Source of the DNA: Ignavibacteriales bacterium
GTDB lineage: Bacteria > Bacteroidota > Ignavibacteria > Ignavibacteriales > SURF-24
Length of the DNA stretch: 64,000 nucleotides
NCBI GenBank assembly: GCA_026390815.1
Contig: JAPLFH010000046.1
Span: 62,001-126,000, forward strand
Direction: 5' to 3'
Part shown: one piece after another, positions 45,612 through 56,025 of the stretch
Position numbering within the stretch: the first letter of the stretch is position 1
Layout: every line of letters begins with the position of its first letter
Notes under the pieces: model-generated
What the model was told of the DNA's origin: nothing
The model's input: the letters and a program-made list of their open reading frames with translations, nothing else
The model's database searches: none
Position numbers and translations under genes: made by a program

Positions 45612-48539
45612 TTACTTCAAACTAAACTGTTGCAAAATATTTAAGAGAAGAGTTCCATCAATTAAAGTTAATAATTGCTGGTTTAATCCAATTAGCTTTT
45701 TACAATCAGATTTAAAGCTGCCAAAAGTAATGATAAAGGATTTTGAAATTTTTACCTGATCAGAAAAAGTATTTAAAAATTTATTAATTGTTTCCAAATT
45801 AGTATACTGTGCGCTGGTTAGTAAAACTAAAATATTTTGTTCGTTGTTGTTAACCATTTTTGAGCCTAATACAACTTCATCCTTAGAATTTTCATCGTAC
45901 ATCAAGATTTTTGTGTTATTAAATCCAAGTTTAACCAGGATTTTTTTTGCTGCCTCTCTTAACTCATTCTGATTATATTTATGTATCTCAGTGTTAACAT
46001 TAATAATTGTATCTTCTACTTTTTGCTCACTGATTAGCTCAGCTTTAATATCAAACAATACTAACCATTCTTCTACGGAAATAAATTCCGCAACAGTCGA
46101 TGGTGAAAAATTATAAAATATATTTTTATGGAAAAGACCTTTCTCAGATAATTTTGAATAGATTTTTTCTTCGATTGTATTTTCAGTCCAGTAAGAATAA
46201 ATATTTATTGTTTTTTTGATATTACCGAAATCAATCTTATCCTCAAGTTGCCAAACAGAATTAGGGTTCCACCAATGATCAAAATGTATGATTGTTGAGA
46301 AATTTCCGAGATTTATTTTTTTCTGTACGGCTTTAACATCAGCTAAAAATATTTGAGCTTTATTATCTCTAAAATCATTTACTGATTTTTCAAGTTCCGC
46401 TTCCAGCATTCCTGTTTTGTATATAACAAAGTCCAGGTTATGGGTTGTAAATAATTTCTTTAACCGGTCTAAACCAAGTTTTTCATATTGGGAAAAAACA
46501 ACAACTTTATCTTTACTTGATTGAATGAATTCCAAAATTTCTTTTGCTTTACTGGCTTCAAATTCTGTTGATGCAAAATTGCAAATTTGCATTAATTGAT
46601 GAAGTAAACTAAATATTTGTGGTCGAACAATGTAATAGTTTCCTCTTTCAATAGTTGAATAAATTGTTAATTCTCCTTCCTGAATTATTGCATCATACTC
46701 CTTAACCTGCTCCTCGCACATTTTAAACCACTTATTATGGTAAATTCTATCTGGAAGTTCAGCAGTTTGCCCATCCATTGTTCTTGATAATTTTACGGAA
46801 GATAATATATTATTCCATTCAAAATCAGGAATGAGATTTCCAGTAAAATCATTGTACAACTCGCGAAGGTTAATTTCTAATTCAACCTTTCGTTCTTCCT
46901 TTAATAAACCTGAAAGGATCCACAGATATTTTGGTTTGTTCTTTTTAAATAATTTGTTTAGCAATGAAACAGCTCTAACATCCTGAAATTCATCAAGGAT
47001 CACGCAATCAATTTTATTAAGTAAATCCTTTGGAATAATTCCATTCTGATAATCATTAAAAAAAACAGAATAGCTTGTGATAATTATCTGGCTCTGGTTG
47101 AACCATATTTTTTTCCTTTTTGGTTCATCTTCTGGAATAATACAAGTTTTTAAATCCGGTGCCCAATTGCTAAAATGACCGTTCCATCCTTCCGGAATAC
47201 CTGAGACATTTGGCAGGTGTAAAATTCCAAATTCTGAATTTTTAGTAAGCACTAATACATTTTTGATCCGGTTCTTATTAAATAGGAAATTAATAGAATT
47301 AATAACTTGAACAGTCTTACCTAAACCATGTTCGTCGGCTAAGTAACAGAATGGATTATTAATTAAAAAGTCGATTCCTTCTTTCTGGAAAGCATGTAAG
47401 TTGTCAAACGTCTTGCTATCACTGTGAAAGTTCATTTTTTCCACTGGCGTTATTGTGGAGATATATTTTGTATCAGCTTCAATTATTTGCGGTTCTGGTA
47501 TTCTCAATTTCTGAAAATTAAAATTTTTAGTTTTAATAGATTTGGTAAGTTCTAATTTATTTAATCCCTTAATTTTTGCATTAAATGGAATTGCCCCTGA
47601 TAAATTTTTTGAAATATTTACAAAGGAAATTTCCTTTAGTGAAATATTTTTAATTTCATTCACCAGATTTCCCATCGGTACAAATGTGTTGGTGATTAAA
47701 TTAATATTATCTGATGGAGCTGATAATAAACTGAATTGTAAATTAGAAATATTCGTCTCAAATTTTTCTACGTTAAGCAGAGAAACGTCATAAGTATTGG
47801 AAGAAACAGGTAATAGATTGGAAGAAATTTCAGCATAGTAAAGAAAGAATTGAGAAATAATATGTTCATTAACAAGCTTAAAATCCTTTCCAGTAGGTAG
47901 AAGATTATTACAAACGAAATTTGGCTTAATGAAAAATTGTTCAATTAACTTATCTGCTTCAAAATCAATTTCTTTAATAAATTCCCATTTGCCAGGTTGA
48001 TAAATGTTTATAAAAATTTGTTCCTGAAAACTCCAACTTTTTTCAAAATAAATATTCTCAATTTCTCTGTAATAAAATAAGCGAAATGTTAATGAAACAG
48101 GTTCAACTATTTTAATTTGTTGGGTTGGAATATCTATTAAAAGAAAATTTGAAGCTGGTGAATATTGGAAAGTAATTTCCTTTTCCCGGGGAAACAAATT
48201 TTGAGAAACTTCAATATTCGATAAACTGAAAAAAATACGATTGGTTTTAGGTGTTTGGAAAAATCCATTTTTTGATTTTGTGGCTTTTACTCTTAACCAC
48301 TGTTCGAATTGTTTTCTTTCGATAAATCCTTTTGAGCCAAAATATGTAGTTCTTAACCGGATAACAGGAATAACAAAAGCTGTTTTAAAATATTCTTCCC
48401 AAACAATTTTTGTTGGCGAAATAGAAAATCCTTTTACGGAATTGGATGGTTTCTTCAGCCATCGTTTCCATTGCCAATCATCCGGCTTTTCAATTTTATT
48501 AATTGATTCGGCAACTTTAAGCCTTGCATTTTTCAGCAT
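45612..48539 (-). CDS. Divergent SNF2-like ATPase with Mrr-like C-terminal domain
   Basis: 975 aa. Residues 1-375 show no motif. The helicase core has ADEHGLGKT (402-409, close to SNF2 DEMGLGKT), LDEFQDVR (DEFQ at 516-519) and SGLLK in place of SGTP. The second RecA lobe has the SNF2-type FDHWWNP followed by QLEDKIDFGN (764-773), where family members carry an arginine-containing QxxxRxxRxGQ motif, so the arginine finger seems lost. Residues 860-970 resemble the C-terminal strand order of Mrr restriction domains (SKSFIITFGSF, LLTLIDGTLLL), but its catalytic QxK is not visible. Cotranscribed with the 176-aa gene upstream (5-nt gap). Role unknown, perhaps defence-related. Confidence 0.75.
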   Translation of the reverse strand: MLKNARLKVAESINKIEKPDDWQWKRWLKKPSNSVKGFSISPTKIVWEEYFKTAFVIPVIRLRTTYFGSKGFIERKQFEQWLRVKATKSKNGFFQTPKTNRIFFSLSNIEVSQNLFPREKEITFQYSPASNFLLIDIPTQQIKIVEPVSLTFRLFYYREIENIYFEKSWSFQEQIFINIYQPGKWEFIKEIDFEADKLIEQFFIKPNFVCNNLLPTGKDFKLVNEHIISQFFLYYAEISSNLLPVSSNTYDVSLLNVEKFETNISNLQFSLLSAPSDNINLITNTFVPMGNLVNEIKNISLKEISFVNISKNLSGAIPFNAKIKGLNKLELTKSIKTKNFNFQKLRIPEPQIIEADTKYISTITPVEKMNFHSDSKTFDNLHAFQKEGIDFLINNPFCYLADEHGLGKTVQVINSINFLFNKNRIKNVLVLTKNSEFGILHLPNVSGIPEGWNGHFSNWAPDLKTCIIPEDEPKRKKIWFNQSQIIITSYSVFFNDYQNGIIPKDLLNKIDCVILDEFQDVRAVSLLNKLFKKNKPKYLWILSGLLKEERKVELEINLRELYNDFTGNLIPDFEWNNILSSVKLSRTMDGQTAELPDRIYHNKWFKMCEEQVKEYDAIIQEGELTIYSTIERGNYYIVRPQIFSLLHQLMQICNFASTEFEASKAKEILEFIQSSKDKVVVFSQYEKLGLDRLKKLFTTHNLDFVIYKTGMLEAELEKSVNDFRDNKAQIFLADVKAVQKKINLGNFSTIIHFDHWWNPNSVWQLEDKIDFGNIKKTINIYSYWTENTIEEKIYSKLSEKGLFHKNIFYNFSPSTVAEFISVEEWLVLFDIKAELISEQKVEDTIINVNTEIHKYNQNELREAAKKILVKLGFNNTKILMYDENSKDEVVLGSKMVNNNEQNILVLLTSAQYTNLETINKFLNTFSDQVKISKSFIITFGSFKSDCKKLIGLNQQLLTLIDGTLLLNILQQFSLK

Positions 48540-48544
48540 TGCAT

Positions 48545-49075
48545 TTATTCATCAACTTTTTGTAAGTGAACCTGCTCGCATGCTGTTTTTAATCTGTCAA
48601 ATGGTTCTATCAAATTACGCGTAATGGAAATCTGGCTTAACCGTTCTACAATTTCCGGTAGTTCAGAAGCAAATTTTTTAGCAGTTTCAACATAAATTCC
48701 ATAATCGCCAGAAAGTTTGTTTTGTTCTTCACTTGATTTTTTACTTGGAGTATGATCTTCCTTTTCTTTGAACAATTTTATTGCACGAACACCTTGCTTG
48801 TTATTTATTCCAAGAAAAAGCGGATCTCTTACAAGAATCAAATCGAGATCATCTTTTATTGCTCCAAGCAGCGGAAGAGCAATCAGCTCAACCAGAATAT
48901 GTTCAAGAAGAACATCACCATATAACGTCTTCTGGAAGTTGGTTGGTTTTATCGGTGCAGTTACGCGGAATTCTAAAGGTTTAGTATCCGGATCAGTAAC
49001 AAGGATTGCTCCCATTACACCGGCGTTATCATCAAATGTATATGTTTCTAAGAATGCAATTCTTACAAGATCCAT
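48545..49075 (-). CDS. Unknown 176-aa protein paired with the SNF2-like ATPase
   Basis: 176 aa, soluble, acidic. N-terminus DLVRIAFLETYTFDDNAGVMGAILVTDPDTKPLEFRVT suggests an alpha/beta or beta-barrel fold; the last 70 residues look helical. No motif recognised. It is first in a two-gene minus-strand operon ahead of the SNF2-like gene, only 5 nt apart, so a shared complex is a reasonable guess. Confidence 0.7.
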   Translation of the reverse strand: MDLVRIAFLETYTFDDNAGVMGAILVTDPDTKPLEFRVTAPIKPTNFQKTLYGDVLLEHILVELIALPLLGAIKDDLDLILVRDPLFLGINNKQGVRAIKLFKEKEDHTPSKKSSEEQNKLSGDYGIYVETAKKFASELPEIVERLSQISITRNLIEPFDRLKTACEQVHLQKVDE

Positions 49076-49176
49076 TTTTATCTCCGAGTTGTTATTCTAT
49101 TATTACAGAATTATCGGGAAATTTCCAATTTAGTTGAATTTGTCTGAAAGGATGGAAAATGTAGAATGGTTGAGGG

Positions 49177-49264
49177 ATGATGGAGTTTTTTCTGTTTGAC
49201 GTCTGACGTTTGATGGATGAAAGTTGATGAAAGATGTATGATGGAGTTTTTCTGTCTGACGTTT
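49177..49264. repeat. Two copies of a TGATGGAG...TGACGTTT repeat
   Basis: ATGATGGAGTTTTT followed by CTG and TGACG-rich sequence occurs at about 49177-49212 and again at 49238-49264. The second copy lacks one TGACGTC step. The same TTTGACGTCTGAC pattern recurs at 50079-50109, on the far side of the 21-bp array. Confidence 0.55.
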
Positions 49265-49589
49265 CACTTTTTACAATTTAGGCACGGGATTGCTAATGTA
49301 GAATACAATAGAAAAAAGTTACCCTCTTATATAAATTTTTCTTGCTTTTGTAATTTGAAATTATTAACGTATTGCCAGTATTTAAGCGGGGAAACCCAGT
49401 TATATGAAATGGTTCATCTTTTCGTATTTTCCTTTCCTTTTGATGACGTCAAACTCACCTTATTCATACATACATTTTAATTTAGAATCCATTTTAATTT
49501 CATATAGATTTGTTCAGAATAAAATTATAAACGCACAAAAAAATATTTTTTTATGCAGAATAAATAAACACTACAGTTTTAAATAAGTA

Positions 49590-49904
49590 GTAACTGATAA
49601 TTATAAAATTGAAAATGGTTTTTGAAGAATTGAAATCGGTAATTAGAAGATGGAAATTGGAATTGAAAAGCCGGAGGTTGGTTTTTAAAGAGATGAAATT
49701 TGTAATTGGAAAACGACAATTGGTTTTTAAAGACCGGAAATCAGAAATTACTAAGTGGTTATTGGTAATTAAACAGATGAAACTGGTAATTAAAGAAATG
49801 AAACTGGTATTTAAAGAGAGGAAACTGGTAATTGGAAAGTGGAAAATGGTTTTTATGGATAAAAAATCAGTAATAATTAAATAACAGTTGGTTTTTGTTC
49901 GTTT
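49590..49904. repeat. Indel-free 21-bp tandem array, about 15 units
   Basis: Units start at 49590, 49611, 49632, 49653, 49674, 49695, 49716, 49737, 49758, 49779, 49800, 49821, 49842, 49863 and 49884. The shared pattern is GAAACTGGTAATTAAAG plus four variable bases, with the sixth to ninth bases TTGG or CTGG in most units. Copies differ at many positions, the outer ones most, but none has gained or lost a base. One plus-strand frame stays open through the units (heptads such as LVIKEMK, LVFKERK) and so does one minus-strand frame, because 21 is a multiple of three; no ribosome site was found for either. Confidence 0.85.
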
Positions 49905-50022
49905 TTTAACAAAACACTGCTTTCTTAATGAATTCATGATATAATTTTTCTATAAATGGAGTTTTTAGCTCAATTTGGCGGTTTCCTAAAATGATTTTCG
50001 AGGCTAGTGTGATGGCAAACCT

Positions 50023-50038
50023 TGCCTACCGGCAGGCA
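50023..50038. repeat. REP-like GC-rich palindrome
   Basis: TGCCTACCGGCAGGCA folds on itself with one mismatched central pair and continues as GGCGTGAGAC. It is GC-rich in AT-rich DNA. Similar palindromes are dispersed in many bacterial genomes (recall). A RAYT gene is present 13 kb downstream. Confidence 0.6.
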
Positions 50039-50184
50039 GGCGTGAGACAGTAATTATTGAATAACTGTTCGAATTTAACATTTGACGTCTGACATTTAAC
50101 GTTTGACGTGATAATAGAGAGTTTTTGGTTGCCCGCAGCTTAATAAACTAAATAGAACTAATAATATTATAAGGAGGACCTAAT

Positions 50185-50907
50185 ATGAACAAGCACGAAA
50201 GAAACAAGCTGGAAATGCTTGGCGTGGTTTGGAAATTTGGTGAAAGTGTGAAAGAATCTTTTACAGGCGTTCCTGCCATTATTAATGGTTTTGCTGATAT
50301 TGAAATGATCCATAAGGAAATTGGATTAAACGACAACGTGGTAAAAGAAGGAACTAAGGGAAAAGTTATTTCTAAAGACATTTCGCAGGACGAAATTATT
50401 TCCACAGGATTAGTATTTGCCGGTGCAATTTACGGATATGCAGCCGATAAAAATGATGCTGAGTTAATAACTTTTGCAGATATAAACAGCAAAACTTTTT
50501 TAAAACAGCGCGATTCGGAAATCCCTTTGTTTGTTGAAAAAATATTAGACAAAGCTGTTGAGCTTGGCAATGGACTTATTCCTTATGGAATAACCGAAGA
50601 AAAAAGAACGGCAGCCAAAGAAAAGTTAGATGATTATTTAGAGAAATTCGGAAGCGTTAGTATTGGCAAAGGGACCAAAAAATCTGCAAAGGAAACTATT
50701 GTAAATCTTTTAGATAAAGCTGATAAAAAAATTAAAGTATTAGATAAGCTGATGATTAGTTTTAAGGAAAGCAATCCCGAATTATATTCTAAGTATACAG
50801 CAGCACGTGTAATTTATGATAAAGGCGGGAGCCATAAGGCGGATGAACCGGAAACGCCAAAACCGGATGAACCGGAAACGCCAAAACCGGATGAACCGCA
50901 AAAATAA
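50185..50907 (+). CDS. Unknown cytosolic protein with Pro/Glu-rich repeat tail
   Basis: 240 aa, no signal peptide. Residues 1-80 are mixed alpha/beta, with a small hydrophobic stretch (STGLVFAGAIYGYAA); residues 100-210 are helical and Lys/Glu-rich. The last 25 residues repeat PDEPETPK, coded by 24-bp units at 50842 and 50866 plus a partial at 50890. The ribosome site AAGGAGG at 50171-50177 is strong. Neither family nor function is recognised; its position at the island border suggests an accessory gene. Confidence 0.75.
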   Translation: MNKHERNKLEMLGVVWKFGESVKESFTGVPAIINGFADIEMIHKEIGLNDNVVKEGTKGKVISKDISQDEIISTGLVFAGAIYGYAADKNDAELITFADINSKTFLKQRDSEIPLFVEKILDKAVELGNGLIPYGITEEKRTAAKEKLDDYLEKFGSVSIGKGTKKSAKETIVNLLDKADKKIKVLDKLMISFKESNPELYSKYTAARVIYDKGGSHKADEPETPKPDEPETPKPDEPQK

Positions 50908-51304: not shown

Positions 51305-51499
51305 ATGGAACAACACCTGAACCGCTTTATTGATACATATACAAAGGCAATAAAAGAAAATAATGCAGCGATTTTTGCAGGTGCAGGACTTTCTATTCCA
51401 GCAGGGTTTGTGAATTGGAAAAATCTATTGAGAGACAGTGCAACCGCACTGATAAAAATCTGTATTTTGGACAAAGAAATAATTAATAGAATTTTATAA
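51305..51499 (+). pseudogene. Truncated SIR2-family gene (N-terminal 64 codons)
   Basis: [22 protein letters not shown] is the start of a SIR2-like NAD-binding domain of the kind found in bacterial defence proteins; it comes after a short helix as in full-length members. The frame continues for about 20 more codons and stops at 51497-51499. The rest of the SIR2 domain (several hundred residues) is missing. The stop TAA overlaps the hsdR ATG by one base, so the remnant may now serve as a translated leader of hsdR. Whether the peptide has a function is unknown. Confidence 0.75.
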
Positions 51500-54400
51500 T
51501 GACATTTAATGAAGATTCAAGAGTAAAAATACCTGCTATCGTGCATCTGACACGGTTGGGTTACTCCTATTTGCCAAAGGCAAAAATGACCAATCTTCAT
51601 GGCGACACAAACATTTTCATTGACCAGTTTAAAGCTGGGCTTTCTAAAATCAACGACAAGGAGTTCACCGACACCGAAATTGCTGCTTTCATTGCAGAAC
51701 TAAACATTCAACTTGTCAACAGCGACCTTGGCAAACGGTTCTACAAAAGTTTAACTGGAGATTTTCCTTGCAAGCTGATTGACCTTGACAATTTTGAAAA
51801 CAACATTTTCAATGTTGTTACCGAACTCACTTACAAAAACGAGGAAGAAGAATTTAGACCCGACATTACTTTGCTGATTAACGGAATGCCGTTGGCATTC
51901 GTTGAAGTAAAGAAGCCGAACAACAGGGAAGGAATTTTAGCGGAACGAAACCGAATAAATATTCGGTTCAAAAATCCGAAGTTCAATAAGTTCATGAACA
52001 TTACTCAGTTGTTGATTTTCTCCAACAATCAAGAGTATGACGAGGAAAGCATCACACCTATACAAGGTGCGTTTTACGCAACGCCTGACCCCGAACAGGT
52101 AAACTTCAATTGTTTCAGAGAAGAAGATAATTCCATCATTCGTAATTTGCCGATGGAAGATTTGGAAATTGAAAAACAAATTTTGTTGGACAACAACATT
52201 GTTTCAATTCTTGGAACAACAGAATACAACACAGCAAAAGAAAACAACTCCCCTACTAATCGTGTGCTGACTTCTTTGTTTAGCAAACCACGATTGAAAA
52301 TAATTTTGAAATACAGCTTTGCATATGTGAACACAGTTGTAAACAGCGTTCCGAAAATTGAGAAACACATCATGCGTTACCCTCAATTGTTTGCGACATT
52401 GGCGATTGAGAAAAAATTAAATCAGGGAATTAAGAAAGGAATCATTTGGCATACGCAGGGAAGCGGGAAAACCGCTTTGGCGTATTTCAATGTTAATTAT
52501 CTAAAAGACTATTATCAGAAGCAAAACATCATCGCAAAGTTCTATTTCATTGTTGACCGTTTGGATTTGGCAACACAAGCTAAAAACGAATTTGAAGCAC
52601 GAGGGCTGAAAGTTGAAATGATTAGTTCTAAAGATGATTTTGTAAAGAACATCACAACCGCTGGTGCAACCGCAAGTGGAATCGGTGCTCAAACAATTGC
52701 AGTAGTTAATATTCAGAAATTTTCAGACTATTCGATAGCAAAAGTTGCCGACTATAATTTGAATATTAAACGAATTTATTTTTTAGACGAGGTTCACAGA
52801 AGCTACAACCCTGAAGGAACTTTCTATGCAAAACTTGTCAATTCAGACAGAGACGCTATACACATCGGTTTATCTGGTACTCCTTTAATCTCAGGTGATT
52901 TCACAAGCAAAGAAATATTTGGTGATTATTTTCACAAATATTATTACAACAAATCCATTGCAGACGGTTACACTTTAAAGCTGATTCGAGAAGCTATTGA
53001 AACTAAATTCCATAATGAAGTAAAGGGTATTTTGGAATCAATCGAAACTCAGCAAGGAACACTTACTAAAAACGAAGTGTTTGCACATGAAAGATTTGTT
53101 GAGCCATTAGTTAATTACATCATTACCGATTTTAAGAAAAGCCGAGTAATACATAACGACCATTCAATTGGTGGAATGATTGTTTGTGATTCATCCGACC
53201 AAGCCAAAATGATTTTTGAGTATGTTCAGAAATACAACGACAAGCAAACCAGCATTCGCAAACTTGATCATGAACCAACATTAGAATACAATATAGCCGC
53301 TGAACCACAAGAAGCTTATATAAGCGGAGAAAATGCACCGATAACGGCTGCTTTGATTCTCCATGATGTGGACACGAAGCAAATAAGAAAAGACAATCAA
53401 ACAGATTTTAAGCAAGGCAAAATTGATTTGCTGATAGTTTACAATATGCTTCTAACTGGCTTTGATGCAAAGCGTTTGAAGAAAATGTATTTAACAAGAG
53501 TTGTTAGGGAACATAATCTTTTGCAAACACTTACAAGAGTAAATCGACCTTACAAAAGTTTTAAGTATGGTTATGTAGTTGACTTTGCCGACATCAGAAA
53601 AGAGTTTGACAAAACAAACAAAGAATATTTCAAAGAGTTGCAAGCCGAGTTAGGCGATGAAATAAAAGAATATTCAAACTTGTTTAAGTCAGCAGAAGAA
53701 ATTGATGCAGAGATTGCAGAGATAAAAGAGAAATTATTTCTCTACGATTTCACCAACATAGAGGAGTTTCAAAAAATTGTTAGTCAGATTACGAACAAGA
53801 AAGAAATTACCGAACTGAAAAAATGTTTGGAGAACCTCAAGAGTTTATACAACATCATCAAGATAATGGGTTACACCGATCTCCTGGAGAAATTCTCTTT
53901 TGACAAAGTGAATAAGTTGTATGCAGAAGTTTCAAATCGCATTGACATCATTAACCTGAAAGAAAATTTAGAGAACGCGTCAGACAACACAAATCTGCTG
54001 AACATTGCATTGGAAAAAATGCAATTCACTTTCCGTAAAATTGCGACACACGAATTACAGATTGCAGATAAATTTAGAAGCGAGTTGGAAAGAGCAAGAA
54101 AAGAACTGGAAGGAAACTTTGACAAGAAAGACCCGAGATTTATTTCACTGTTTGAAGAACTGAAACGATTATTCAAAAAGAAAAACATTGAGGAATTTGA
54201 TTCGGCTGAAATGGATGCAGCGATAAAAGATTTGAAAAACATTTACGAACAGGCAAACGCATTAAACAATAAAGATGCACTGCTTGCAGCCAAGTATGAA
54301 AACGATACCAAGTTTGCCAGGATTCACAAACGCATCAAAGAAAATAATCTGAATGTGCTGAACACCGATATTGCTTTGCATGAAGCACTGTTATTTATCA

Positions 54401-54585
54401 AACACAAAACCGATGCAACAGTGGTGAACAATCAGGCATTGTTAAACAATCAGGATTATTTTGCCGAAGCCACCAAGCGGACAATTATTGAAACACTTGA
54501 AGAAAAAGGAATCAGAGATTTGAATGTGGTTCGCTTTATCAATACAACATTAGTGAACGAATATTTTTTCCAAAGAGCAATATGA
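51499..54585 (+). CDS. hsdR: Type I restriction enzyme R subunit (EcoR124-like)
   Basis: 1028 aa, full length. N-terminal nuclease with PD-ExK: D122 (FRPDITLLI) and E136-x-K138 (FVEVKKP). Two RecA lobes follow: Walker A QGSGKT (320-325), DEVH (430-433), GLSGTPL and LLTGFDAKRLKKMYLTR with TLTRVNRPYK. A long helical C-terminus (residues 740-1028) binds the methylase complex. Translocates and cuts unmethylated DNA with HsdM and HsdS. ATG 51499 overlaps the SIR2 remnant stop. Codon use (more AAC, GAC, CAC) differs from the surrounding chromosome, consistent with transfer. Confidence 0.95.
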   Translation: MTFNEDSRVKIPAIVHLTRLGYSYLPKAKMTNLHGDTNIFIDQFKAGLSKINDKEFTDTEIAAFIAELNIQLVNSDLGKRFYKSLTGDFPCKLIDLDNFENNIFNVVTELTYKNEEEEFRPDITLLINGMPLAFVEVKKPNNREGILAERNRINIRFKNPKFNKFMNITQLLIFSNNQEYDEESITPIQGAFYATPDPEQVNFNCFREEDNSIIRNLPMEDLEIEKQILLDNNIVSILGTTEYNTAKENNSPTNRVLTSLFSKPRLKIILKYSFAYVNTVVNSVPKIEKHIMRYPQLFATLAIEKKLNQGIKKGIIWHTQGSGKTALAYFNVNYLKDYYQKQNIIAKFYFIVDRLDLATQAKNEFEARGLKVEMISSKDDFVKNITTAGATASGIGAQTIAVVNIQKFSDYSIAKVADYNLNIKRIYFLDEVHRSYNPEGTFYAKLVNSDRDAIHIGLSGTPLISGDFTSKEIFGDYFHKYYYNKSIADGYTLKLIREAIETKFHNEVKGILESIETQQGTLTKNEVFAHERFVEPLVNYIITDFKKSRVIHNDHSIGGMIVCDSSDQAKMIFEYVQKYNDKQTSIRKLDHEPTLEYNIAAEPQEAYISGENAPITAALILHDVDTKQIRKDNQTDFKQGKIDLLIVYNMLLTGFDAKRLKKMYLTRVVREHNLLQTLTRVNRPYKSFKYGYVVDFADIRKEFDKTNKEYFKELQAELGDEIKEYSNLFKSAEEIDAEIAEIKEKLFLYDFTNIEEFQKIVSQITNKKEITELKKCLENLKSLYNIIKIMGYTDLLEKFSFDKVNKLYAEVSNRIDIINLKENLENASDNTNLLNIALEKMQFTFRKIATHELQIADKFRSELERARKELEGNFDKKDPRFISLFEELKRLFKKKNIEEFDSAEMDAAIKDLKNIYEQANALNNKDALLAAKYENDTKFARIHKRIKENNLNVLNTDIALHEALLFIKHKTDATVVNNQALLNNQDYFAEATKRTIIETLEEKGIRDLNVVRFINTTLVNEYFFQRAI

Positions 54586-54611: not shown

Positions 54612-54821
54612 ATGAAACAACAAACAGCAATAAAAATTTTCGAAAAGAAAAAAGTAAGATCACTTTGGGATGCTGGACAGGAGAAATGGTTTTTAGCCAT
54701 CGTAGATGTTATTGCCGTTTTAACTGACAGTCCTAACCCACAGGTGTATTGGCGGGTGATGAAAAGAAGATTGAAGGATGAGGGAAATGAAACCGTTACA
54801 AATTGTAACGGTTTAATATAA
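54612..54821 (+). CDS. Truncated BRO-N protein, copy 1
   Basis: 69 aa. IKIFEKKKVRSLWDAGQEKWFLAIVDVIAVLTDSPNPQVYW is the Bro-N DNA-binding domain of phage antirepressor-like proteins; the protein stops right after TVTNCNGLI, where the full-length copy (55177) continues. The codons for that motif lie in the palindrome at 54790-54814. The frame is intact and diverged by roughly a third of residues from copy 2, which argues against recent decay. Between hsdR and hsdM, like the other two copies. Confidence 0.75.
   Translation: MKQQTAIKIFEKKKVRSLWDAGQEKWFLAIVDVIAVLTDSPNPQVYWRVMKRRLKDEGNETVTNCNGLI
54790..54814. repeat. Palindrome in BRO copy 1
   Basis: Left arm AAACCGTTACAA (54790-54801), one central A, and the exact reverse complement (54803-54814). 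It overlaps the codons for T-V-T-N-C-N-G near the end of copy 1. Core TACAAATTGTA is shared with the other two BRO palindromes. Confidence 0.9.
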
Positions 54822-54843
54822 AACTGATAAAAGAAACATTACC

Positions 54844-55056
54844 ATGAAAAAAGAAAATGACATAAAAATATTTGAAGATAAAAAAGTAAGGACGCTGTGG
54901 GATGCGCAGGAGGAGAAGTGGTATTTATCAATTGTTGATGTGATTGCCGTTTTAACGGACAGCCCCAAGCCAAGAAAGTATTGGAGTGTTTTAAAAACAA
55001 GATTGAAAGCAGAGGGAAGTCAGTTGACTACAAATTGTAGTCAACTGATAAAATAA
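54844..55056 (+). CDS. Truncated BRO-N protein, copy 2
   Basis: 70 aa, same domain as copy 1 (IKIFEDKKVRTLWDAQEEKWYLSIVDVIAVLTDSPKPRKYW) and ends after TTNCSQLIK. It begins 232 nt after the copy 1 start. After the palindrome both short copies carry ACTGATAAAA, absent from the long copy, so they share one truncation event. The V-to-T and N-to-S changes compared with copy 3 fall at mirrored codons of the palindrome. No function known for the isolated domain; DNA binding is likely. Confidence 0.75.
   Translation: MKKENDIKIFEDKKVRTLWDAQEEKWYLSIVDVIAVLTDSPKPRKYWSVLKTRLKAEGSQLTTNCSQLIK
55020..55048. repeat. Palindrome in BRO copy 2
   Basis: Left arm TCAGTTGACTACAA (55020-55033), central A (55034), exact reverse complement (55035-55048): 14-bp arms. 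Contains the core TACAAATTGTA. Differs from the copy 3 palindrome at two mirrored base pairs, with pairing kept. Confidence 0.92.
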
Positions 55057-55173
55057 TAACCAGCCAAATCGTGACAGGTTGTCATGGTTTGAAAAAATTA
55101 ACTGTCCAAAAAAATAGGGCAATTGAAATTAAAACTGAAACGGTTACAAATTGTAACTCTTTGAAAAAATAAA
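55057..55173 (+). pseudogene. Remnants of two further BRO motifs
   Basis: Between copies 2 and 3 one frame reads SQIVTGCHGLKK (from about 55062) and then ETVTNCNSLKK (55138-55170) before a TAA at 55171-55173. Both match the VTxCxxLK motif that follows the Bro-N domain, without the domain itself. The second retains GTTACAA-A-TTGTAAC (55143-55157) as a shorter palindrome. These look like scars of earlier copies. Confidence 0.55.
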
Positions 55174-55176
55174 ACG

Positions 55177-56025
55177 ATGGAAAAGAAAAACGAAATAAAA
55201 ATATTTGAAGATAGAAAAGTTCGTTCCTTATGGGATAGCGAACAAGAAAAATGGTACATCTCTATTGTTGATGTGGTAGGCATATTAACGGATAGCCCAA
55301 ATCCCAATAATTATTGGAAAGTTTTAAAGAACAGGCTAAAGAAAGAGGGAAGTCAGTTGGTTACAAATTGTAACCAACTGAAAATGCAATCAGTTGATGG
55401 CAAGTTTTACCTTACTGATGTTGCCGATACCGAACAATTGTTCCGTCTCATTCAATCCATTCCATCTCCCAAAGCAGAACCGTTTAAACTTTGGCTGGCA
55501 CAGGTGGCTGCTGAAAGATTAGACGAGATGCAAGATCCTGAGCTTACTATTGACAGGGCTTTGAAAGAATATTTGCAATTGGGATATTCTGAAAACTGGA
55601 TTAACCAACGACTGAAAAGTATTGAAATAAGAAAAGAACTTACAGACGAATGGAAAAAAAGAGGTTTAAAAGAAGGCACTCAGTTTGCAACGCTTACCGA
55701 TATTATTACAAAAGCATGGAGTGAGAAAACAACAAAAGAATACAAAATCCTGAAAGGATTGAAGAAAGAAAATCTCCGGGATAACATGACCAACACCGAA
55801 CTAATTTTAAACATGCTTGCAGAAGCATCTACAAAAGATATTTCGACAGCAGTAAACCCTGAAGATTTTGAAGCCAATAAAAATGTAGCAAAGCAAGGTG
55901 GTGGTGTAGCTAAAGTTGCACGAAAAGAATTGGAAGCGAGAACTGGTAAAAAAGTAGTTACGTCAATTAATGCAAAATCTGTTTTGCAATTGAAAGAAAA
56001 CGTTAATAAGAAAAAGAAGAAATAA
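55177..56025 (+). CDS. Full-length BRO-family (Bro-N) DNA-binding protein, copy 3
   Basis: 282 aa. Residues 1-110 are Bro-N (IKIFEDRKVRSLWDSEQEKWYISIVDVVGILTDSPNP, then SQLVTNCNQLKMQSVDGKFYLTDVADTEQLFRLIQSIPSPKAEPFKLWLAQV). Residues 115-282 form the usual C-terminal domain with TDEWKKRGLKEGTQFATLTDIITKAW and a KNVAKQGGGVAKVARKELE motif. These proteins are found in phages and in type I restriction loci and are thought to bind DNA; a regulatory role for the restriction genes is inference. The C-terminus is Lys-rich. Confidence 0.88.
   Translation: MEKKNEIKIFEDRKVRSLWDSEQEKWYISIVDVVGILTDSPNPNNYWKVLKNRLKKEGSQLVTNCNQLKMQSVDGKFYLTDVADTEQLFRLIQSIPSPKAEPFKLWLAQVAAERLDEMQDPELTIDRALKEYLQLGYSENWINQRLKSIEIRKELTDEWKKRGLKEGTQFATLTDIITKAWSEKTTKEYKILKGLKKENLRDNMTNTELILNMLAEASTKDISTAVNPEDFEANKNVAKQGGGVAKVARKELEARTGKKVVTSINAKSVLQLKENVNKKKKK
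55353..55381. repeat. Palindrome in BRO copy 3
   Basis: Left arm TCAGTTGGTTACAA (55353-55366), central A (55367), exact reverse complement (55368-55381): 14-bp arms wholly inside the coding sequence, covering Q-L-V-T-N-C-N-Q-L codons. Core TACAAATTGTA shared with the other copies. Confidence 0.93.

Follow-up and report, generated by a model that had tools for sequence, protein, structure and literature searches.

Sequence-variable arrays of about 21 bp upstream of a gene family encoding predicted all-helical proteins in Ignavibacteriales and related bacteria

What keeps a tandem array in an exact 21-bp register when its units differ widely from one another? The question is raised by positions 49590–49904 of a 64,000-nucleotide stretch of an Ignavibacteriales genome (GenBank assembly GCA_026390815.1, contig JAPLFH010000046.1), referred to below as the window; the features of the locus are collected in Table 1. 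The initial annotation described fifteen diverged units without an indel, and both parts of this description stand. The identity at a lag of 21 is 0.585, far beyond 3000 first-order Markov shuffles (mean 0.317, sd 0.030, maximum 0.435); the mean pairwise identity of the 15 units is 0.577, and their mismatches to the consensus sum to 92. Alternate units are slightly closer to each other (0.604) than neighbours are (0.585), and a weaker 7-bp sub-period is present (identity 0.438 at lag 7). The G+C content is about 0.28, and the + strand is poor in C (17 C, 71 G).

Table 1. Features of the array locus in the window.
Feature	Position	Strand	Remark
Divergent gene upstream of the leader	48545–49075	−	
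Non-coding leader	49076–49589	+	From the divergent gene start to the ladder; promoter expected here
21-bp ladder	49590–49904	+	15 units without indel, consensus GAAATTGGTAATTAAAAAATG; strict segment 49585–49854
Spacer between ladder and gene	49905–50184	+	280 bp
Ladder-associated gene	50185–50907	+	240 aa, all-helical model, proline-rich C-terminal tail
24-bp tandem repeat in the gene	50840–50902	+	Encodes the PDEPETPK tail

A search of the same genome with the window array revealed two more long 21-bp arrays (L002 and L005), each directly upstream of a 240-aa gene distantly related (25% identity) to the gene that follows the window array. The latter has eight distant paralogs in this genome, so that the family counts nine members; a tenth match, with an E value of 0.106, was not counted. 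Arrays of about 21 bp precede seven of the nine genes, so the arrangement in the window is not unique but recurs within the genome. The arrays of this genome mostly differ in sequence, those of L011 and L012 and those of L014 and L017 being alike. Family profiles found matches in 14 of 59 relatives. They also matched 15 genomes out of 395 from the phylum, 52 out of 391 from the class, 20 out of 149 from the order to which G171 belongs, and 13 out of 99 from the class of G206; these five samples overlap. Some genomes contain 10–14 matches, 14 being the maximum. Phages, plasmids, and viral contigs gave no match in searches with single family proteins. No neighbour gene other than generic families recurs at the array loci, and the module is thus defined as the array plus one gene.

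The association extends well beyond the genome of origin. Upstream of the first 16 more distant loci, a clear period-21 or period-42 signal was seen in 14. A strict array threshold (score 25, length 110) was then applied to 40 new homologs, having been set before they were scored: a strict period-21 array lies upstream of 23 and downstream of none, and when the best period is chosen among 10–60, it is 21 in 18 and 42 in 11 of the upstream regions (29/40). In a still more distant set (40 loci listed, four dropped because their upstream stretch was shorter than 300 bp), a strict array lies upstream in 20 of 36 cases and downstream in two; downstream period-21 scores of 35–43 were obtained at L211, L225, and L242, and two distant-set loci make up the strict downstream hits. 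Finally, 627 kb of sequence around homologs were scanned for periods 10–60. Period 21 accounted for 27 segments, all but one of which (26) stand directly before a homolog; there were 26 segments of period 42 and no more than three of any other period. The exception, L113/L195, is an orphan period-21 segment separated by 7.4 kb from the homolog downstream of it.

Not every member of the family has an array. The strict threshold was missed upstream by 17 of the 40 test loci and 16 of the 36 distant loci, and the upstream period-21 score never exceeds 12 at L158, L164, L184, L189, and L190. No array lies within 957 bp upstream of L115, the member most closely related to the window gene; this region contains an open stretch that by eye looks transposase-like. 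In a tree of 85 family members, 13 clearly array-less ones, whose highest scores are 12.9 for period 21 and 22.7 for period 42 against the threshold of 25, fall in two fully supported clades, and the other below-threshold loci are scattered.

Among 72 loci (the 40 test loci and 32 earlier ones), the best period in the range 13–32 is 21 in 52, 22 in one (L183), 20 in one (L185), some other value in five, and none in 13. The GCAAA core of L030 recurs at 20, 21, 41, 20, 21, 41, and 21 bp; L050 has a similar mixture of 20- and 21-bp spacings, and the 41-bp period of L233 is read as 20 + 21. In view of the 20-, 22-, and 41-bp cases, the spacing rule is 20–22, mostly 21, rather than exactly 21. The exact register without indels holds for the window array but not for all related ones, some of which have one-base indels. 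In many arrays (L065, L082, L227), two 21-nt half-units alternate, giving a super-period of 42 nt. The strongest harmonic of column conservation in 25 arrays is two per unit, i.e., 10.5 bp (p 0.001, uncorrected for the 10 harmonics). The 22-bp array of L183, located 1024 to 640 bp upstream of its gene, is clear, and its units, unlike the others, carry an inverted repeat CACC...GGTG.

The proposal that spacing is under constraint and sequence is free has been strongly supported, since a period of about 21 bp recurs upstream of homologs with differing array sequences. The period remains the same across classes despite unrelated array sequences, and the G+C content of the arrays spans from about 0.28 to 0.72, several being 67–72% G+C. 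Such conservation of repeat length across classes in the presence of unconserved sequence is unusual and implies a molecular ruler. Within each array, the recurring core is specific to the locus; accordingly, a protein may prefer the core of its own locus, or only the register may matter. In three same-genome pairs of paralogs, upstream segments are alike (L109/L110, 75% over 144 bp; L174/L175, 91.5% over 153 bp; L187/L188, 78% over 116 bp), and no similarity of array to array was detected within any of them. The L109 and L110 genes are 68% identical at the DNA level; their similar upstream segment is, by eye, a divergent gene and not a promoter. In the close pair L096/L097, the units match one to one; the 237 array columns contain 34 substitutions but no gap, and the 135 columns upstream contain eight substitutions; L050/L185 also match one to one, with a few single-base gaps, and L089/L090 pair a homogenised array with a diverged one, again with a single-base gap. 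The homogeneous cores of many arrays (L101, L187, L089) indicate recent expansion. Expansion of a single unit, which had been named as an observation that could undo the constraint, does not explain the window array, though it may explain others such as L101 and L187.

The arrays are probably transcribed as the 5′ leader of the gene from a promoter upstream of the array, a conclusion that is supported but weaker than the preceding ones. The sense-strand purine fraction is 0.582 in the array, 0.583 in the spacer, and 0.576 in the gene, against 0.532 in the leader (array versus leader, p 0.002). A promoter pattern of the Bacteroidota type was found upstream of the arrays seven times in sense (1.0 expected) and once in antisense (1.1 expected). 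The enrichment is suggestive only, because the pattern was set after inspection of eight leaders (L174, L175, L187, L188, L163, L171, L096, and L097), which contribute four of the seven hits, and because L174 and L175 are homologous. The first pattern, TTTG-N17..22-TANNTTTG, occurred twice upstream against 0.6 expected. The leader in the window does not match the promoter pattern. The spacer between array and gene ranges from 59 to 636 bp, with a median of 151 (36 loci), and a scan of 50 loci detected no intrinsic terminator in it (0.8 expected), in keeping with a transcript that runs from the array into the gene. Rfam gave nothing reaching the gathering score at ten related loci and, in the window stretch, two matches far below their gathering scores.

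Two proteins of the family are modelled by AlphaFold as all-helical (L096, pLDDT 86.9, pTM 0.59; window protein, pLDDT 85.4, pTM 0.51). For the window protein, Pfam gave nothing at E ≤ 1 and NCBIfam no family scoring above its cut-off, and the helical part of the nine members from this genome belongs to no Pfam or NCBIfam family. Likewise, no Pfam, NCBIfam, PADLOC, or PHROG family is common to the members, the PADLOC and PHROG matches being those of single proteins. Foldseek with the L096 model gave nothing significant (best E 0.22 against PDB, 0.23 against viral models), and the best VIA-align hit had a Z of 9.0 over 91 residues, a level deemed uninformative for helical bundles in the note of the tool; no recognisable DNA-binding domain emerged from these fold searches. 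The signal for an internal duplication (hhalign local E 0.0048, probability 7%) is weak, and no duplication is claimed. At the C-terminus stands a tail that is rich in proline or of low complexity in some other way, or, in many distant members, a further domain: CarboxypepD_reg was matched in six of ten proteins submitted to Pfam, in five above its cut-off. The C-terminal domains are exchangeable within the family. L117 and L118 of G038, which are very different paralogs, have a common 84-bp, 95% identical 3′ end; these sequences suggest that C-terminal tails may have been exchanged between the two.

The pairing points to an undescribed two-part system in which the length of the repeat carries more weight than its letters; no description of it was found in open-licence papers. 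Since the step is fixed, the sequence free, and the position always upstream of one gene, the gene product may line up on the ladder with one copy per about 21 nt. Our preferred reading, put forward tentatively and with somewhat less than even confidence, is that the array and the gene form one module whose protein is predicted to coat the ladder, one protomer per about 21 nt. The ladder would be transcribed as a leader, with the gene for the all-helical protein downstream in the same direction; the protein would bind the ladder to give a regular nucleoprotein, and its footprint would set the spacing. The protein-binding ladder of the initial annotation thus remains the leading kind of explanation, except that the ladder may be RNA rather than DNA. 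RNA is somewhat favoured over DNA because the leader is probably transcribed and because array and gene can stand as far apart as 636 bp, and in one case 7.4 kb. Should the protein indeed coat its own leader, the result would be a bacterial nucleoprotein of a new kind.

Several observations weigh against coating of an RNA ladder. Most of the 40 test-set proteins have a near-neutral or negative charge, unlike typical nucleic-acid binders, and the unrelated arrays of the three paralog pairs speak against simple recognition by sequence. Two B-DNA turns per unit, together with the 10.5-bp harmonic, fit DNA at least equally well. No RNA secondary-structure signal was found in 37 arrays compared with their column-permuted versions (mean z −0.03 sense, −0.19 antisense, pseudoknots lying outside the model). 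The loci that miss the strict threshold and the lack of a promoter match in the window itself also count against the reading.

The ladder may act instead as DNA, the copies of the cognate protein sitting on one face of the duplex at sites two helical turns apart and touching each other, for autoregulation, looping, or partition. In plasmid iterons and partition centromeres, direct repeats spaced about two helical turns apart accompany the gene for the protein that binds them; the ladders share this spacing and likewise adjoin the gene of a presumed binding protein. The dominance of 21 within 20–22, equal to two B-DNA turns, the top conservation harmonic, and the position on the promoter side of the gene all fit such sites. 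However, the ladders are many per genome with diverged units; the nine members scanned against Pfam and NCBIfam include no replication-initiator or partition family, and there is no plasmid match. The unrelated arrays within the paralog pairs, the purine richness in sense shared with the gene and the spacer, the distances at L094 (636 bp) and L195/L113, the 22-bp units of L183, and the absence of a recognisable DNA-binding domain from the fold searches speak against DNA as well. We consider this account doubtful; were it correct, the ladder would represent an iteron-like system without a known initiator.

A bolder proposition, in which we place somewhat less trust still, is that selection acts on the period of the ladder rather than on its letters. 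A long leader built of steps of about 21 nt would be a ruler or scaffold on which many copies of the helical protein encoded downstream gather, and its sequence could be replaced freely provided that the step is preserved. Each copy would then display its C-terminal tail or beta-sandwich domain at regular spacing.

Processing of the ladder transcript into small RNAs acting as inhibitors or guides of the protein is improbable, even though tandem repeats beside one effector gene are a layout shared with known systems. Type III toxin–antitoxin loci (ToxIN, CptIN, TenpIN) have tandem repeats that precede a single protein gene in the same orientation and are transcribed with it from one promoter (PMC6315513). 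The ladder also lies upstream of its gene in the same direction, but the Rho-independent terminator of those loci was found between array and gene in none of 50 loci (0.8 expected; the scan was a simple one, which factor-dependent terminators escape). Moreover, ladder units are 20–22 nt and often strongly diverged. The repeat RNA of type III systems is structured as a pseudoknot; the 37 arrays show no structure signal within a model that excludes pseudoknots. The type III toxin is an endoribonuclease; the ladder protein is all-helical in its model, and neither a nuclease family nor a clear fold match was found for it. The TIGR-Tas systems combine an array of half-units of about 20 nt, varying between loci and possibly placed upstream, with a single small effector; a unit consists of two 8–12-nt repeats and two 9-nt spacers (PMC12045711). 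Half-units of this size, reflected here in the 42-nt super-period, a single small effector gene, and a sequence conserved inside a locus and different between loci are common to both. In contrast, conservation in the ladder is graded, the unit tables revealing on inspection no clean blocks of repeats and hypervariable 9-nt spacers. The Nop domain (PF01798) was unmatched in 16 genomes including that of the window and among the Pfam matches of the nine paralogs, although remote Nop domains can escape such a search. TIGR-Tas, whose transcripts are processed to 36-nt RNAs, occurs mostly in viruses and parasitic bacteria, whereas the ladder module was found in bacterial genomes of one phylum, with no match in phage or plasmid collections.

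A neutral origin, with slippage or a recombination hotspot placing the arrays near this gene family by chance, is less probable again. The homogeneous cores noted above, a sign of recent expansion, would agree with it, as would heptamer repeats of similar composition elsewhere in the genome (GGAAATT arrays at L004 and L010). It is opposed by the 26 of 27 arrays directly upstream of a homolog, by a period constant across classes, unrelated sequences, and the whole range of G+C content, and by the register kept by diverged units. In the window itself, short heptamer repeats of the TTTGACG type flank the array at 49187–49271 and 50073–50109. Heptamer direct repeats known from Beggiatoaceae, Cyanobacteria, and some Bacteroidetes are intergenic, tandem, and upstream of genes; their unit is TAACTGA, some Bacteroidetes have longer arrays, and the downstream genes share no common function (PMC4679880). 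The weak 7-bp sub-period of the window array recalls them, but the ladder unit is 21 bp, free in sequence, and tied to one gene family.

Bent DNA phased by A/T or GG steps, curving the segment upstream of the gene, had also been put forward and is very unlikely. The arrays are about twice as curved as shuffled sequence, any 21-bp repeat summing its curvature, but hardly more curved than their column-permuted selves (37 arrays, mean z 0.29 ± 0.14; window, 0.10); A/T phasing at 10.5 bp shows no excess, and bending agrees poorly with arrays of 67–72% G+C. A heptad-repeat protein of seven codons per unit is hardly credible: although open frames run on both strands of the window array (+ strand, 49609–49884, 91 aa, TTG start; − strand, 49551–49937, 128 aa) and one sense frame is open through the L045 array, these are no evidence of coding, and as a general explanation it is rejected by at least three stops in every sense frame of eight of 28 arrays (L011, L012, L013, L014, L044, L053, L062, L078) and by the mixed 20/21-bp spacing of L030 and L050 and the 22-bp spacing of L183.

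The surroundings of the array loci deserve brief mention. The window array was said to stand at the border between chromosome and defence island; this suits the side with a type I restriction HsdR gene (51499–54585) and a Bro-N gene (55177–56025), but an SNF2-type helicase gene (45612–48539) lies on the other side. Within 54612–56025, two tandem ORFs of 69–70 aa resemble the N-terminus of the full-length Bro-N gene that follows them. A 64-aa ORF at 51305–51499, by eye the start of a SIR2-type protein and possibly truncated, ends at the HsdR start. At L094 (7000–7637), an ORF between array and gene looks by eye like a DUF559-type endonuclease. At the L195/L113 locus (G050 C23:21855–30400), about 7.4 kb of other genes separate array and gene, like inserted defence-type cargo; by eye, we take these ORFs to encode a DUF3800-type protein, a UvrD-type helicase, a DUF1016-type nuclease, and a Bro-N protein, the gene for the last being similar to the Bro-N gene of the window.
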